From NCBI RefSeq assembly GCF_001519075.1, contig NZ_KQ954244.1, positions 823,934 through 887,933 of the forward strand: a DNA stretch of 64,000 bases, read 5' to 3'. Position numbers and translations under genes: made by a program. Positions within the stretch are counted from its first letter, which is position 1, and each line of letters starts with the position of its first letter. Positions 18,195 through 29,526 of this stretch are shown in pieces. The notes beneath the pieces were generated by a model that saw nothing but the letters and a program-made list of their open reading frames with translations, had not been told where the DNA came from and made no database searches. The stretch is from Novosphingobium fuchskuhlense (GTDB lineage: Bacteria; Pseudomonadota; Alphaproteobacteria; Sphingomonadales; Sphingomonadaceae).

Positions 18195-19616
18195 CTACCC
18201 CTCCACGATCCGGTAGGGCACCAGATCGCGCTGGCTCGGATCGACCGCGATGGCCTTGTCGCTAGGAGGGAAGGCGCGCTGGTCGCAGGTGTCGCGGGGG
18301 CAGATGCGGCAGGAGATGCCGATGCGCGTGACCGCGTCCTCGTTCGTCAGGTTGAGGCCGTCGGCGTAGACGAATTCGTCCGCCAGCGCGGCTTCGCAGC
18401 CGAGGACCACGGCGTAGCGGCGGGGCTGGCGGTAGTAGCTGCCGCTGGGTTTGACGAGGCCCTTGGCGATCGAGACGTAGCGGATGCCGTCGGGCATTTC
18501 GGCGAGCTGGACGTGGATGCGGTCCGGGATGGCGACGGCTTCGTGGACGATCCACAAGGGGCAGGCGCCGCCGAAGCGGCCGAACTGCAGGCGGGTGGCG
18601 GAGTGGCGCTTGGTGATGTTGCCGGCCATGTCGACCCGCGCGAAGAACACGGGGATGCCGCGCGCCTGCGGGCGCTGGAGGGTGGAGAGGCGGTGGCAGC
18701 ACTGCTCGAAGCTCACGTGGAAGAGCTGGCGCAGCCGGTCGATATCATGGCGCAGCTTGCGCGCCGCGCTGCGGAAGCGTTCATAGGGCATGAGGAGCGC
18801 GCCCGCGGCGTAGTTGCCGAGGCCGACGGTGAGGAGGTGGCGCGCGGCCTCCGTCTGCAGCGGCGCGGAGGCGACGATATCGGTGATCTGCTCGGAGAGC
18901 GCCAGCGCGGCGACCTGGTACGCGAGCTGGAAGCGGCTCGATTCGTTGGGCTGGGCGGAATCGAGCTGGAGGTGCCGGCGGGCCGCGTCGAAGCGGCGCA
19001 GGGCGACGCCGCTGGCCCATTCGATCGACACGCCCTCGCGGCGCAGCCATTGCTGCATGGTGCGGATGCGCGGGCTGGCTTCGTCTCCGGCGATCTGGTG
19101 GGCGAGCGTTTCGGCATCGCGGTCGATTCGGTCGACATAGTTGTTGGCGAGGTGGAACCAGTCGCGCACCTCCTCCCATGGCAGGCGGCCACCCGCTATT
19201 TCCGAACCGCCAAGATCGAAGCCTATCGCCTCGTCGAGCATTTCGAGGCGCTGGCGGCCCTTGGCGAAGAGGCCGTGGAGGGTGATGAAGTTCTCCGCGA
19301 ATTGCGGGAACTGGCGAGCGAGGCGCTCGACCTGATCGGCGGGAATGCCGCCGGGGAGCTGCGGATCGGCAAGCGCCTCGCGCAGCGATTCTGCGAGCGT
19401 ATCAGCATCTGGCGGGGCGAAATCGGCCCAGTCGATAGGGAAGGCGGCGCGCAGCCGTTCTGCGAGCGCGGGGGTGAGGTGGCGCTCGTCGGTTTCGAGC
19501 TGCGAGAGATAGGGCGCGCTGATGCCGAGCGCGTGGGCCATCTCCGCCTGACGCAGGCCGCGGCGCTGGCGCAGGGTGCGCAGGGCCTGCCCTGCAAAGA
19601 GCCTTCGGTTTGCCAT
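18195..19616 (-). CDS. pccR: XRE-family short-chain fatty acyl-CoA regulator (PccR-like)
   Basis: A 473-residue ScfR-type regulator: an N-terminal XRE helix-turn-helix (residues about 8-65, with LRTLRQRRGLRQAEMAHAL and SAPYLSQLETDERHL), a central IrrE-like/DUF955-type region, and the ScfR C-terminal domain ending with a Cys cluster (CRICPRDTC). PccR of Rhodobacter is a member of this family and activates propionyl-CoA carboxylase genes. Here the gene is divergent from pccB, the expected target. The start at MANRRLFAGQ removes an upstream extension that would run over the operator. The name is given by family plus context and is not proven. Confidence 0.85.
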   Translation of the reverse strand: MANRRLFAGQALRTLRQRRGLRQAEMAHALGISAPYLSQLETDERHLTPALAERLRAAFPIDWADFAPPDADTLAESLREALADPQLPGGIPADQVERLARQFPQFAENFITLHGLFAKGRQRLEMLDEAIGFDLGGSEIAGGRLPWEEVRDWFHLANNYVDRIDRDAETLAHQIAGDEASPRIRTMQQWLRREGVSIEWASGVALRRFDAARRHLQLDSAQPNESSRFQLAYQVAALALSEQITDIVASAPLQTEAARHLLTVGLGNYAAGALLMPYERFRSAARKLRHDIDRLRQLFHVSFEQCCHRLSTLQRPQARGIPVFFARVDMAGNITKRHSATRLQFGRFGGACPLWIVHEAVAIPDRIHVQLAEMPDGIRYVSIAKGLVKPSGSYYRQPRRYAVVLGCEAALADEFVYADGLNLTNEDAVTRIGISCRICPRDTCDQRAFPPSDKAIAVDPSQRDLVPYRIVEG

Positions 19617-19630
19617 GAACGTGATCCTAG

Positions 19631-19653
19631 TTTGCAAACTAGAGCTTTGCAAC
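19631..19653. promoter_or_regulatory. Candidate PccR operator (TTTGCAAA pair)
   Basis: TTTGCAAA at 19631-19638 and TTTGCAAC at 19646-19653, 15 bp apart centre to centre; further half-like copies (TTTGCTGA, ATTGCATT) follow at 19654 and 19662. The Rhodobacter PccR site is described as paired TTTGCAAA (from memory). The position, 15 bases before the pccR-like start and 84 before pccB, suits autoregulation and control of pccB. Confidence 0.75.
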
Positions 19654-19736
19654 TTTGCTGAATTGCATTGGACAGCCGCGCTGCAATGCGGCATCCGCCT
19701 CGGCCTTGAACGCCTGCAGTCGAGGAATGCTCACGC

Positions 19737-21263
<1,527 letters not shown>

Positions 21264-21625: not shown

Positions 21626-22804
21626 ATGACTGACATCTTCATCGTTTCCGGCGCGCGCACGGCCATTGGCACGTTTGGCGGCAGCCTCGCCTCGTTCCGT
21701 CCGGCGGATCTGGGCACCATCGTGATCAAGGAGGCGATTGCCCGCGCCGGGATCAGCGCGGACAAGGTCGAGAACGTGGTGATCGGCACTGTCGTGCCGA
21801 CGCAGCCGAAGGACGCGTATGTCAGCCGCGTCGCGGCGGTGAACGCGGGTGTGCCGATCGAAAGCCCGGCGATGAACGTGAACCGGCTCTGCGGTTCGGG
21901 TCTGCAGGCGATTGTTTCCGCCGCGCAGGGGATTGCGCTGGGCGAGCAGCAGATTGCCGTCGGCGGGGGCTGCGAGGTCATGTCGAACGCGCCGCATATG
22001 GTGCTCACCGCGCGGAACGGCCAGAAGATGGGCGATCAGGTGCTGATGGACGCCATGCTCGGCGCGCTCCACGATCCCTTCGAGAACATCCACATGGGCG
22101 TGACGGCGGAGAACGTGGCCGAGCGCCACCAGATCACGCGTGAGGCGCAGGACGCGCTGGCGGTGGAAAGCCACAAGCGCGCGGCGGCGGCGACGGCTGC
22201 GGGCTACTTCAAGGAGCAGATCGTCCCGGTCGAGATCAAGACCCGCAAGGGCGTGACCGTGTTCGACACCGACGAGCATTTCCGCGCCGATGCCAGCGTG
22301 GAAGCGATGGCCACGCTGAAGCCGGTGTTCAAGAAGGACGGGACTGTGACGGCGGGCAATGCCAGCGGCATCAACGACGGCGCAGGCGCGGTCGTGCTGG
22401 CGAGCGGCGAAGCGGTGGCCGAGCATGGGCTGAAGCCGATTGCCAAGATCCTCGCCTGGGGCCATGCGGGCGTGGAGCCCAACGTAATGGGTCTCGGCCC
22501 GGTCAAGGCCGTGCCGGTGGCGCTGAAGCGCGCGGGGCTGACGCTCGACCAGATCGACGTGATCGAGAGCAACGAGGCGTTTGCGGCGCAGGCCTGCGGC
22601 GTTGCCAAGGAGCTGGGCTTCGATCCGGCCAAGACCAATCCCAACGGCTCGGGCATTTCGCTCGGCCACCCGATTGGTGCGACGGGCGCGATCCTGACAA
22701 TCAAGGCGGCCTACGAGTTGCAGCGCACCGGCGGCCAGTACGGTCTCATCACGATGTGCATCGGCGGCGGTCAGGGCATCGCCATGGTGATCGAGAGGGT
22801 CTGA
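21626..22804 (+). CDS. Acetyl-CoA C-acetyltransferase (thiolase)
   Basis: A 392-residue biosynthetic/degradative thiolase that condenses two acetyl-CoA or splits acetoacetyl-CoA. The nucleophilic Cys lies in NVNRLCGSGLQAI near residue 90, the catalytic His in SNEAFAAQACGV/GHPIGATGA, and the second Cys in LITMCIGGGQGIAM. Length and motifs fit PhaA/AtoB, but a broader beta-ketothiolase is possible, for instance acting in isoleucine or odd-chain breakdown, which would feed propionyl-CoA to the neighbours. The epimerase gene starts two bases after its stop. Confidence 0.93.
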   Translation: MTDIFIVSGARTAIGTFGGSLASFRPADLGTIVIKEAIARAGISADKVENVVIGTVVPTQPKDAYVSRVAAVNAGVPIESPAMNVNRLCGSGLQAIVSAAQGIALGEQQIAVGGGCEVMSNAPHMVLTARNGQKMGDQVLMDAMLGALHDPFENIHMGVTAENVAERHQITREAQDALAVESHKRAAAATAAGYFKEQIVPVEIKTRKGVTVFDTDEHFRADASVEAMATLKPVFKKDGTVTAGNASGINDGAGAVVLASGEAVAEHGLKPIAKILAWGHAGVEPNVMGLGPVKAVPVALKRAGLTLDQIDVIESNEAFAAQACGVAKELGFDPAKTNPNGSGISLGHPIGATGAILTIKAAYELQRTGGQYGLITMCIGGGQGIAMVIERV

Positions 22805-22806
22805 TC

Positions 22807-23247
22807 ATGAAGCTCGGCAGGCTCAACCATATCGGCGTTGCGACGCCTTCGATTGCGGACAGCATTGTGTTCTGGCGCGACGTGATGGGCGCGACGAAGA
22901 TCCATGAGCCCTTCGACCTGCCGGAGCAGGGCGTGAAGGTGTGCTTCGTCGACACGCCGGGTGCGGATGGCGCGCTGAACGGCACGCAGATCGAACTGAT
23001 CGAGCCGCTGCCGGGCAATACCGGGATCGCCGGCTTTCTGGCGAAGAACCCCGCCGGGGGGCAGCACCACATGTGCTACGAAGTGCCCGATATTCACGCG
23101 GCCAAGGCGGCGTTCGAGGCGCTGGGCAAGCGCGTGCTGGGCGAGCCGCGCATCGGGGCGCATGGGACGCTGATCTTCTTCGTCCACCCCAAGGACATGG
23201 GCGGGGTGCTGACCGAGATCATGGAGACGCCGAAAGAGGCGCATTGA
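22807..23247 (+). CDS. mce: Methylmalonyl-CoA epimerase
   Basis: Interconverts (S)- and (R)-methylmalonyl-CoA between the carboxylase and the mutase. It has 146 residues in the vicinal-oxygen-chelate (glyoxalase) fold. Expected metal ligands are seen in [10 protein letters not shown] (His), [12 protein letters not shown] (His) and the terminal LTEIMETP (Glu). [12 protein letters not shown] is characteristic. It is tightly linked to the thiolase gene before it and to the mutase gene 20 bases after. Confidence 0.95.
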
Positions 23248-23267: not shown

Positions 23268-25406
23268 ATGGCGAATATCGAAGACTGGCAGAAGGCCGCC
23301 TCGAAGGAAGTGAAGGGCAAGGACCTCACCTGGCAGACGCCGGAAGGCATTGCCGTGAAGCCGCTCTATACGGCGGAGGACGTTAGCGTCGATCCGGGTC
23401 TGCCGGGCTTCGCGCCGTTCACGCGCGGGGTGCGGGCTTCGATGTATGCGGGGCGGCCCTGGACGATCCGGCAATATGCGGGCTTCTCCACCGCCGAGGA
23501 ATCGAACGCATTCTATCGCCGCAATCTGGCGGCGGGGCAGAAGGGCCTGTCGGTCGCCTTCGATCTGGCGACGCACCGCGGGTATGACTCGGACCACCCG
23601 CGCGTGGTCGGCGATGTCGGCAAGGCGGGCGTGGCGATCGATTCGGTCGAGGACATGAAAATCCTGTTCGACGGGATTCCGCTCGATCAGATGTCCGTTT
23701 CGATGACCATGAACGGCGCGGTGATTCCGATCCTCGCGTTCTTCATCGTGGCGGGCGAGGAGCAGGGCGTGGCCCGCGCGCAGCTCGACGGGACCATCCA
23801 GAACGACATCCTCAAGGAGTTCATGGTCCGCAACACCTACATCTACCCGCCCGAGCCTTCGATGCGGATCATCTCGGACATCTTCGGCTATACCAGCCGC
23901 GAGATGCCGAAGTTCAACTCGATCTCGATTTCCGGCTATCACATGCAGGAAGCCGGGGCGACGCAGGTGCAGGAGCTGGCCTTCACCATCGCCGACGGCA
24001 TGGAATACGTGAAGTACGGCGTCGCCTCGGGCCTCGATATCGACAAGTTTGCCGGGCGCCTGTCGTTCTTCTTCGCCATCGGGATGAACTTCTTCATGGA
24101 AGTGGCCAAGCTGCGCGCCGCGCGCGTGCTGTGGCACCGGGTGATGACGCAGCTCGGCGCGCAGGATGAACGCAGCAAGATGCTGCGCACGCACTGCCAG
24201 ACTTCGGGCGTGAGCTTGCAGGAGCAGGACCCCTACAACAACGTGATCCGCACCACGATCGAGGCGATGGCCGCGATGCTGGGCGGCACGCAGTCGCTCC
24301 ACACCAATGCGCTCGATGAAGCCATCGCGCTGCCGACCGACTTTTCCGCGCGCATTGCCCGCAACACGCAGATCGTGATCCAGGAAGAGACCGGCATGAC
24401 CAAGGTGGTCGATCCGCTGGGCGGGTCGTATTACATCGAGGCGCTGACGCAGGAACTGGTCGACAAGGCGTGGGAGATCATCGAGCGCGTCGAGGCCGAA
24501 GGCGGCATGGCCAAGGCCGTGGCGGCGGGCTGGCCCAAGGCGATGATCGAGGAAGCCGCTGCCGGACGGCAGGCGCGGGTGGACCGGGGCGAGGACGTGA
24601 TCGTCGGCGTCAACAAGTACCGCCTTGCGAGCGAAGACCAGCTCGATACGCTCGAAGTCGACAACATGGCGGTGCGCGAGGGCCAGATCGCGCGGCTGAA
24701 GTGGGTGCGTGAAAATCGCGACGAGACCAAGTGCCGCGCGGCTTTGAACGCGCTGACCGAGGGCGCGAAGACCGGCGGCAATCTGCTGGAGCTGGCGGTT
24801 GAAGCCGCACGGCACCGCGCCACGCTGGGCGAGATTTCGGACGCGATGGAGATCGTGTTCGGCCGCCACGGCACGCATCCCACGCCGGTTCGCGGCGTCT
24901 ACAGCGCCTATTATGCCGGGGATGCGCGCTACCAGCAGGTGCTGGACGGCGTGGAAGCCGTGACGCGCCGTCTGGGCCGCGCCCCGCGCATGCTCGTCTC
25001 CAAGATGGGCCAGGACGGGCATGACCGCGGCGCGAACGTGATCGCCTCCGCGTTTGGTGACATGGGCTTCGATGTGACGAGCAGCCCGCTGTTCCAGACG
25101 CCCGAGGAAGCCGCCAAGCTGGCGCTGGAGGCCGATGTCGATGCGGTCGGCGCGTCGAGCCTTGCGGCGGGGCACAAGACGCTGATCCCCGAACTGATCC
25201 GCCACCTGCGCGAGGCGGGCCGCAGCGATATCAAGGTCGTCGCGGGCGGGGTGATCCCGCCGCAGGACTACGATTTCCTGCGCGAGGCCGGGGTGCAGGG
25301 CATCTATGGCCCGGGCACCAATGTGGTTGAAGCGGCGGCGGATATGCTGCGCCTGCTGGGGCACAATATGCCGCCTGCTGGCGAAGAACTGGCGGCGGCG
25401 GAATAA
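23268..25406 (+). CDS. scpA: Methylmalonyl-CoA mutase (adenosylcobalamin-dependent)
   Basis: Rearranges (R)-methylmalonyl-CoA to succinyl-CoA. The 712-residue single-chain form has a substrate-binding TIM barrel (residues 1 to about 540; [50 protein letters not shown]) and a C-terminal cobalamin domain with the base-off motif DGHDRG, His585 being the lower axial ligand. This is a homodimer-type enzyme, so no small subunit is needed. No MeaB/ArgK chaperone or cobalamin riboswitch is seen nearby. Product flows to sucCD, which lies upstream. Confidence 0.96.

Positions 25407-25715: not shown

Positions 25716-25716
<1 letters not shown>
25411..25716 (+). CDS. DUF1330-family protein
   Basis: A 101-residue protein of the dimeric ferredoxin-like DUF1330 family, with the typical KGYVVAEVDVHDAEGFAAY and RIVIVEFPSKAQAEAF segments. 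Its function is unknown. GTG 25411 is the only plausible start between the mutase stop and the conserved N-terminus. Its TGA overlaps the pccA ATG, so it is translationally coupled to the carboxylase alpha subunit; that position suggests some role with the propionyl-CoA pathway, but nothing in the sequence proves it. Confidence 0.82.
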
Positions 25717-27737
<2,021 letters not shown>

Positions 27738-27787: not shown

Positions 27788-27816
27788 TTGACGTTTACGT
27801 AAGCGCCACTTATGCG
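27788..27816 (+). promoter_or_regulatory. etfBA promoter with LiuR-like site
   Basis: TTGACG (27788-27793) and TATGCG (27811-27816) are spaced by 17 bp, a good sigma-70-type arrangement. The segment 27788-27803 reads TTGACGTTTACGTAAG, with a TTACGTAA palindrome. From memory this resembles MerR-family LiuR sites that control branched-chain amino-acid and fatty-acid degradation genes, including etf. The operator would cover the -35 element and spacer. Confidence 0.55.
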
Positions 27817-27847: not shown

Positions 27848-28594
27848 ATGAAAGCCCTGGTCTGCGTGAAGCGGGTGATCGACTACAACGTGAAGCCGCG
27901 CGTGAAGGCGGATGGCACGGGGGTTGACCTTGCCAACGTCAAGATGAGCATGAACCCGTTCGACGAAATCGCGGTCGAGGAAGCCATTCGCCTGAAGGAA
28001 AAGGGCGTGGTTACCGAGATCGTGGCGGTTTCGGTCGGCCCGGCCAAGGCTCAGGAAACGCTGCGCACCGCGCTCGCCATGGGTGCGGACCGCGCGATCC
28101 TCGTCGTCAGCGAAGACGAAGTCGAGCCGCTGGCGGTGGCCAAGATCATCAAGGCCGTGGCCGATGAAGAACAGCCGGGCCTGATCATCACCGGCAAGCA
28201 GGCGATCGACGACGACGCCAACCAGGTTGGCCAGATGGTCGCCGCGCTGCTGGGCCGTCCGCAGGGCACTTTCGCCAACGAGATCGCGGTCGAGGGTGAC
28301 AGCATTGTCGTGAAGCGCGAGATCGATGGCGGTCTGGAAACGGTGAAGTTGGCGCTGCCCGCCATTGTCACCACCGACCTTCGCCTCAACGAGCCGCGCT
28401 ACGCCTCGCTGCCCAACATCATGAAGGCTAAGTCCAAGCCGCTCGCGACCAAGGCGCCGGCGGACTACGGCGTCGATATCGCGCCGCGCCTCAAGACGCT
28501 CAAGGTCACCGAACCGCCGGTGCGCAGCGCGGGCATCAAGGTGCCCGATGTGGATGCGCTGGTTGCCAAGCTCAAGGAAATGGGAGTCGCCTGA
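27848..28594 (+). CDS. etfB: Electron transfer flavoprotein, beta subunit
   Basis: A 248-residue subunit that with EtfA accepts electrons from acyl-CoA dehydrogenases and passes them to ETF-ubiquinone oxidoreductase. It starts [20 protein letters not shown] and has the ETF-beta signature around [20 protein letters not shown], with a conserved [13 protein letters not shown] segment. The stop and etfA start overlap (TGATG). It sits right after the propionyl-CoA cluster, consistent with shared use in odd-chain and branched-chain catabolism. Confidence 0.96.
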
Positions 28595-29526
28595 TGTCGA
28601 AGACGCTTGTTTGGGTCGAACACGACAACGCTTCGATCAAGGACGCGACGCTTGCCGTCGTGACCGCCGCCGCGCAGATCGGCGAAGTGACCGCGCTGGT
28701 CGCGGGCGCGGGCTGCGATGGCGCTGCCGCCGCCGCCGCGCAGATCGCCGGCGTGAGCAAGGTGCTCAAGGCCGATGACGCGGCCTATGCCAATGCGCTC
28801 GCCGAGAACGTGGCGCCGCTCGTCGCCGGCCTGATGGCCGATTACGACGCGTTCGTCGCGCCTGCCACGACCACCGGCAAGAACATCGCGCCGCGCGTTG
28901 CCGCGCTGCTCGACGTGATGCAGGTCTCGGACATTCTCTCGGTCGAAGGCCCCAAGACCTTCACCCGCCCGATCTATGCCGGCAACGCGATCGCCACAGT
29001 CGAATCGACCGACGCCAAGCTGGTCGTCACGGTGCGCGGCACCGCCTTTGCCAAGGCGGATGCGACCGGCGGTGCGGCTGCGGTCGAAACCGTGGCGGCT
29101 GCGGGCGACTCCGGCACGTCGACCTTCCTCGGTTCGGAAATTGCCAAGAGCGAGCGTCCGGAACTGACCTCGGCCAAGATCATCGTCTCGGGTGGCCGGG
29201 CCCTCAAGGATGCGGAAACCTTCCAGAGCGTGATCACTCCGCTCGCCGACAAGCTCGGCGCCGGCATCGGTGCGAGCCGCGCAGCGGTCGACGCGGGCTA
29301 TGTTCCCAACGACTACCAGGTCGGTCAGACCGGCAAGATCGTGGCACCGGAAGTCTACATCGCGGTCGGCATCTCGGGCGCGATCCAGCACCTCGCGGGC
29401 ATGAAGGATTCGAAGACCATCATCGCCATCAACAAGGACGAGGATGCCCCGATCTTCCAGGTCGCGGACATCGGCCTCGTCGGCGATCTGTTCACGCTGG
29501 TGCCGGAACTAACCGGCAAGCTCTGA
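28594..29526 (+). CDS. etfA: Electron transfer flavoprotein, alpha subunit
   Basis: The FAD-binding subunit of ETF, 310 residues. The C-terminal FAD domain is clear: [36 protein letters not shown] and [21 protein letters not shown]. The N-terminal domain is the ETF alpha/beta fold. It overlaps etfB by one base and is followed by a strong terminator. Confidence 0.96.

Follow-up and report, generated by a model that had tools for sequence, protein, structure and literature searches.

The window, a 64,000 nt stretch of the Novosphingobium fuchskuhlense genome, includes a 120 bp divergent gap (19617-19736) that separates the start of a regulator gene on the minus strand from that of pccB on the plus strand. 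The regulator CDS (18195-19616, with its ATG at 19616-19614) encodes a 473 aa PccR-like protein of the ScfR type, composed of HTH, IrrE-like and ScfRs domains. On the other side of the gap, pccB (19737-21263, plus strand), encoding the carboxyltransferase subunit of propionyl-CoA carboxylase, is the proposed target of activation. It is followed on the same strand by CDSs for a BktB-like beta-ketothiolase (21626-22804), a methylmalonyl-CoA epimerase (22807-23247; scanned as 22756-23247 and above the cut-off of TIGR03081), a methylmalonyl-CoA mutase (23268-25406), pccA, the biotin-carrying subunit with its PCC_BT domain (25716-27737), and etfBA (27848-29526), the mutase and etfBA being named from sequence. 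The genes after pccB make up the methylmalonyl-CoA pathway.

All three regulator domains (PF01381, PF06114 and PF09856) exceeded their gathering scores, PF09856 with an E value of 3e-63, giving the protein the HTH, IrrE-like and C-terminal ScfRs domains by which ScfR proteins are recognised. Against the RamB equivalog model NF038139 it scored 387.4 bits, under the 700-bit cut-off, and it is not classed as RamB. Its relative in the PDB is the mycobacterial regulator PrpR (6cyy, E value 1e-75), the Fe-S ligands of which are described as Cys363 and a C447-x2-C450-x4-C455 motif (PMC6765138); these positions align with Cys352 and C436-x2-C439-x4-C444, respectively. Anchoring the numbering on Cys447/363/450/455 places Trp147 (LPWEEV) opposite PrpR Phe155 (PMPFEEV) in the acyl pocket. 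Phe155 is located at the base of the CoA pocket, a position at which PccR is reported to have a tryptophan (PMC6765138), as does the protein encoded here; Trp147 is invariant among 11 aligned orthologues.

The relationships of the regulator were studied using a tree of 60 rows, built by a quick method from sequences that included no named R. sphaeroides protein. Nineteen sphingomonad regulators formed one clade (100), apart from the paralogues; this clade joined eight regulators of another alphaproteobacterial family (f29), from genomes with pccB nearby, and three others at 99 (SH-aLRT), with the regulators of family f58 lying outside this group. The protein thereby groups with pccB-linked regulators of other families, as would be expected of a PccR, and is itself linked to pccB. 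An ScfR protein (PF09856) in this clade, together with the conserved boxes detailed below, supports the proposal of the initial annotation that the PccR circuit extends to this lineage. Beyond that proposal, the analysis brought out the third box, the -35-like element, the etfBA sites and a probable overlap of the boxes with the promoter of the regulator gene itself. A second ScfR paralogue, 34-35% identical, is present elsewhere in the same genome (L191, G000:C3:143000-152000), with a TTTACA...TTGTAAA-like stretch upstream.

Within the gap, box A (TTTGCAAA, 19631-19638, no strand assigned) and box B (TTTGCAAC on the plus strand, GTTGCAAA on the minus; 19646-19653) are the pair that had been noted as lying 15 bp apart between the divergent genes, and the step from start to start is indeed 15 bp, leaving 7 bp between the boxes. 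Box C (TTTGCTGA on the plus strand, TCAGCAAA on the minus; 19654-19661) abuts box B at a step of 8 bp and is degenerate, having two mismatches in the window; in relatives it often reads TTTGCAAA or TTTGCGAA. Single copies of TTTGCAAA mean little, as there are 23 places genome-wide (against nine for a reversed control) and one in the window (against 0.39 expected). The pair is far more distinctive: TTTGCAA-N5..12-TTTGCAA occurs once in the window and never in 100 shuffles, and when the scan for paired sites suggested by the initial annotation was run with TTTGCAA-N4..12-TTTGCAA, this locus was the only match in the 3.97 Mb genome, with none for reversed-pattern controls. Relaxing the search to N7 pairs with at most three mismatches added one site with two mismatches and three sites with three, relative to one place for the reversed control. 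The further half-like units that had been noted in the gap were borne out in part: TTTGCTGA (box C) holds a conserved position in relatives. A 16 bp perfect palindrome around box A, CTAGTTTGCAAACTAG (19627-19642), is particular to N. fuchskuhlense; it was considered and rejected, since its left arm is not conserved.

Conservation was assessed by retrieving regulator homologues from 61 genomes including that of N. fuchskuhlense (51 matched, with 15 full-length regulators of at least 55% identity, its own among them, and one truncated), from named genomes (the best 80 of 563 being kept, which represented Novosphingobium, Sphingopyxis, Tsuneonella, Caenibius, Chakrabartia, Sphingorhabdus and other genera), from 249 family genomes (89 matched at an E value of 1e-100) and from 387 class genomes (94 matched at 1e-90). 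From 231 loci examined, those with no pccB match (53), with pccB too far away (seven) or with no regulator (one) were removed, leaving 170 in which the regulator and pccB diverge across a short gap, the original locus and some species being repeated among them; loci retrieved through TTTGCAAA alone (L171-L190) were left out. Once gaps sharing more than half of their 8-mers were discarded, 134 remained, 129 from sphingomonads and five from other families (L145, L148, L149, L152 and L155). Some of these rows have low apparent regulator identities because only part of the protein is present.

A template-free tally of the distances between TTTGCAAA sites, each with at most one mismatch, found 23 bp in 90 of the 134 gaps, 15 bp in 62 and 8 bp in 48, and a distance of 12 bp in none, while across 20 rounds of mononucleotide shuffling no distance exceeded 0.05 gaps. 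Hence the three boxes stand in a fixed register, with 15 bp from A to B and 8 bp from B to C, and the 7 bp between boxes A and B pointed out in the initial annotation is both real and lineage-wide in sphingomonad gaps. The boxes are conserved across the orthologous gaps, contrary to the outcome that the initial annotation had named as refuting its proposal, and 130 of the 134 agree with a three-box template in at least 17 of its 24 positions; below this level fell L145, L152 and L155, from other families, and L223, from the same family as the window. Every column of box A is at least 92% conserved in the 130 aligned gaps. A stricter test, allowing one mismatch in A and two in each of B and C, was passed by 111 of the 130, the failures being due to A alone (eight), B alone (eight), C alone (one) or B and C together (two). 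In four gaps of genus g280 (L131-L133 and L135) box B has been lost, with A and C kept exactly 23 bp apart; hence three boxes are not strictly needed, and this variant offers a natural test of the role of box B. The distance from box C to the pccB start is 56-94 bp in 117 of the 130 gaps and that from box A to the regulator start ranges from 1 to 172 bp, a contrast that ties the array to pccB. Just 11 of the 130 gaps have a pccB side of at least 100 bp, and in 38 (L010, L011, L013, L066, L092 and others) the regulator side measures 47-172 bp, several of these having long palindromic REP-like inserts on that side of box A.

The presence of the array also follows the type of regulator. Among distinct upstream regions retrieved via the regulator protein, and not via the three-box pattern, the array was detected by matrix in 112 of 112 where the regulator was at least 55% identical, in none of 14 at 41-55% and in none of 29 below 41%. 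The first of these figures is partly circular, as the matrix was trained on these same gaps, and so confirms rather than proves the association; free of this circularity, as is the distance tally, is the count of template-free box pairs 8, 15 or 23 bp apart, found in 104 of 112, two of 14 and two of 29 regions, respectively. An earlier set, which included loci retrieved by the three-box pattern, gave 147 of 147, six of 28 and none of 30. Many paralogues have a TTGTAAA-like stretch upstream in place of the array. The pattern TTGCRAAnTTGCRAA-N7-TTTGCAAA, with one mismatch allowed, matched 49 of the 249 family genomes, the reversed control matching none of the 249; it has no match in the N. fuchskuhlense genome because box C is degenerate there. 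Of the 53 sites matching this pattern, 48 are just upstream of the regulator.

The other five sites suggest that the array has additional targets. Four are between sucC and etfB (L305, L307, L308 and L309), and the last, a single case with one mismatch, is at about 4288 in L306 of genome G375, upstream of a gene for an 878 aa TonB-dependent receptor. At all five, the end of the array with box C and a CATT-like element is turned towards the target gene, the same arrangement as at pccB. The etfBA operon follows pccA in the window; in some relatives it instead follows sucC and has its own three-box array. A scan of 74 upstream regions, from 92 etfB places, with a 42-position matrix detected the array in eight of the 59 regions from genomes encoding the regulator and in none of the 15 from genomes without it (at an E value cut-off of 1e-100). 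All eight, four of them the pattern matches and four new, are oriented towards the target, scoring from 27.8 to 63.1; the next best region scored -24.3, and the best of 2220 shuffles -6.5. The etfBA sites are thus a minority, found in eight of 59 regions.

Outside the sphingomonads, the spacing between boxes can differ. The operator of PccR in Rhodobacter (Cereibacter) sphaeroides is reportedly a TTTGCAAA-X4-TTTGCAAA motif at pccB (Carter and Alber, 2015), such that the ScfR regulator and the TTTGCAAA boxes upstream of pccB are shared with the system described here, but the step would be 12 bp (4 bp between boxes) in place of 15 bp (7 bp between). The N. fuchskuhlense gap, with its 7 bp, thereby departs from the operator said to typify the PccR subgroup, a difference that concerns the operator variant and not the protein. 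Also different from R. sphaeroides are the third box, abutting at 8 bp, and the etfBA sites of some genomes. When TTTGCGAA was also allowed as a box, a 12 bp step was present in two of the 134 gaps, both from f58 (L148 and L149), each of which has a degenerate further box 8 bp on; it was absent from the third f58 gap (L145). In f29, pccB is immediately preceded by X4 pairs in three genomes (L252, L257, which is the same as L312, and L259), in agreement with the motif reported for R. sphaeroides. Across this family the X4 pattern matched 23 of 120 genomes, relative to five of 120 for the reversed control, and L252, L257 and L259 are the only ones of the 23 loci to hold pccB nearby. A second match in genome G850 (L313) is an X4 pair at the regulator start, 1.4 kb from pccB. 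Five other f29 genomes (L246-L250) have no X4 pair at pccB and are arranged otherwise; hence X4 is not universal in f29. The difference from a 4 bp Rhodobacter spacing suggested in the initial annotation accordingly holds on the sphingomonad side, with the 4 bp value checked indirectly, being found at pccB in some f29 and f58 genomes and not in other f29 genomes. Class-wide, TTTGCAA pairs of any spacing matched 183 of 289 genomes, a count that was not used because AT-rich genomes of small size dominated it.

Beyond box C in the direction of pccB is CATTGGAC (19666-19673, plus strand), containing CATT(G/T)G, an element that is almost invariant (98% conservation for the C, 96% for the A, 88% and 97% for the two successive T and 95% for the last G). 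It overlaps TGGACA (19669-19674), the proposed -35 hexamer of pccB, which would be paired with a weak -10, CATCCG (19692-19697), 17 bp further on, the A of which at 19693 is 92% conserved. Judged from their sequence, these could plausibly form an activator-dependent pccB promoter with a poor -10. On the minus strand, a putative pccR promoter (19624-19652) would consist of a -35 hexamer, TTGCAA (19652-19647), inside box B, a 17 bp spacer and a -10 hexamer, TAGGAT (19629-19624), just past box A; the TA following box A is moderately conserved in relatives (72 and 64%). Both proposed -10 regions are weak. Given the position of TTGCAA within box B and of TAGGAT after box A, the operator would overlie the promoter of the regulator gene itself.

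We consider it highly likely, with a probability of roughly 0.87, that the gap constitutes one compound PccR-type operator, in which boxes A, B and C, at steps of 15 and 8 bp, end beside the pccB -35, activating pccB and repressing pccR. Under such a mechanism, propionyl-CoA or a related short-chain acyl-CoA would bind the regulator, which, probably as a tetramer, would occupy the three boxes and recruit RNA polymerase to the pccB promoter; PrpR is described as a CoA-binding tetramer (PMC6765138). The same binding would repress pccR, as box B doubles as its putative -35 and box A fills the spacer. It is very probable that the adjacent acyl-CoA-sensing regulator controls the propionyl-CoA carboxylase genes. 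A simple arrangement of HTH dimers lined up along one helix face does not easily account for the 15 and 8 bp steps.

It might be argued that the regulator uses this operator to repress pccB, with acyl-CoA relieving the repression, as the boxes overlap the promoters and mycobacterial RamB is described as repressing icl1 (PMC6765138). However, the proposed -35 is preceded by the array, with box C abutting it, much as an activator site would be placed, and this applies equally to pccB, to etfB and to the gene for the TonB receptor; additionally, R. capsulatus lacking pccR is reported to grow poorly on propionate (PMC10370305). Repression of pccB therefore seems unlikely. It is considerably less probable that the boxes serve another protein, such as the additional ScfR paralogue encoded in this genome or some unrelated factor. 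Boxes of the TTTGCAAA type are common to ScfR proteins, with mycobacterial PrpR and RamB both said to act on icl1 (PMC6765138) and an interaction of PrpR with the ramB promoter on record (PMC3420887), but the paralogue (G000:C3), like many of its relatives, has a TTGTAAA-like stretch without the three-box array, which instead follows the pccB-linked clade. That the boxes arose by chance, as an A+T-rich intergenic repeat, can be given almost no weight: although a single TTTGCAAA is common, with 23 in the genome, the register is fixed in 134 non-redundant gaps and shuffles yield values near zero.

Our best reading is that the compound operator belongs to an already known PccR/pccB system, of which the sphingomonad box spacing and the etfBA sites appear to be new. 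The propionyl-CoA carboxylase genes of C. sphaeroides are described as being under PccR control (PMC12632250), and a pccR beside pccB has been named, as a hypothetical regulator, in the sphingomonad Rhizorhabdus wittichii, with no operator described in the available portion of that paper (PMC9195938). In the accessible part of a Novosphingobium paper (PMC6895838), the 2015 PccR study appears in the reference list only. Neither the three-box array nor the link to etfBA was reported in the available sections of the open-licence literature, a corpus that does not cover the 2015 study; the sphingomonad array hence appears to be a new variant of the PccR operator. In the methylcitrate cycle regulator PrpR, also an ScfR protein and with a solved structure, TTTGCAAA palindromes again occupy a divergent gap and the Fe-S and acyl-pocket positions align with those of the regulator here; it differs in that its two boxes are reported to be one base apart, a 9 bp step (PMC6765138, PMC3420887), its target is prpDC instead of pccB and it has Phe155 where Trp147 is found. 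The class 2 RamB of Paracoccus denitrificans, likewise of the ScfR family, is described as requiring both of its two nearly identical boxes in vivo (PMC10370305); it differs in its 18 bp spacer, its glyoxylate cycle target and its membership of a different subclass. Such natural variants, with steps of 15, 12, 9 and 26 bp, provide a probe of DNA recognition by an Fe-S regulator that senses acyl-CoA. What began as a guess from a single genome is now an operator model that can be tested across a bacterial family and that specifies the exact bases to mutate. Some members of this family are described as degrading steroids or ibuprofen, yielding propionyl-CoA.

A more tentative extension, which we favour less than its converse, is that ScfR proteins follow a lineage-specific spacing code, with A and B 15 bp apart in sphingomonads and 12 bp apart in some other alphaproteobacteria, and a further box at 8 bp in both. 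The geometries of regulator and operator would have co-evolved, and the switch would have taken over etfBA, which encodes the electron transfer flavoprotein, in several sphingomonad lineages and, once, a TonB receptor gene. If so, the level of propionyl-CoA would be coupled directly to electron transfer and uptake.

The idea that the array replaced a LiuR-like site at etfBA was set aside: ACGTnnACGT is present in one of eight array-bearing etfB upstream regions relative to 21 of 65 others, and the regions are too few and of unequal length. Paired boxes were looked for at the etfBA genes of the window and none was found. Upstream of etfB there is ACGTTTACGTAA (27791-27802), which occurs once in the window and in none of 100 shuffles, and which we take to resemble a LiuR-type site.
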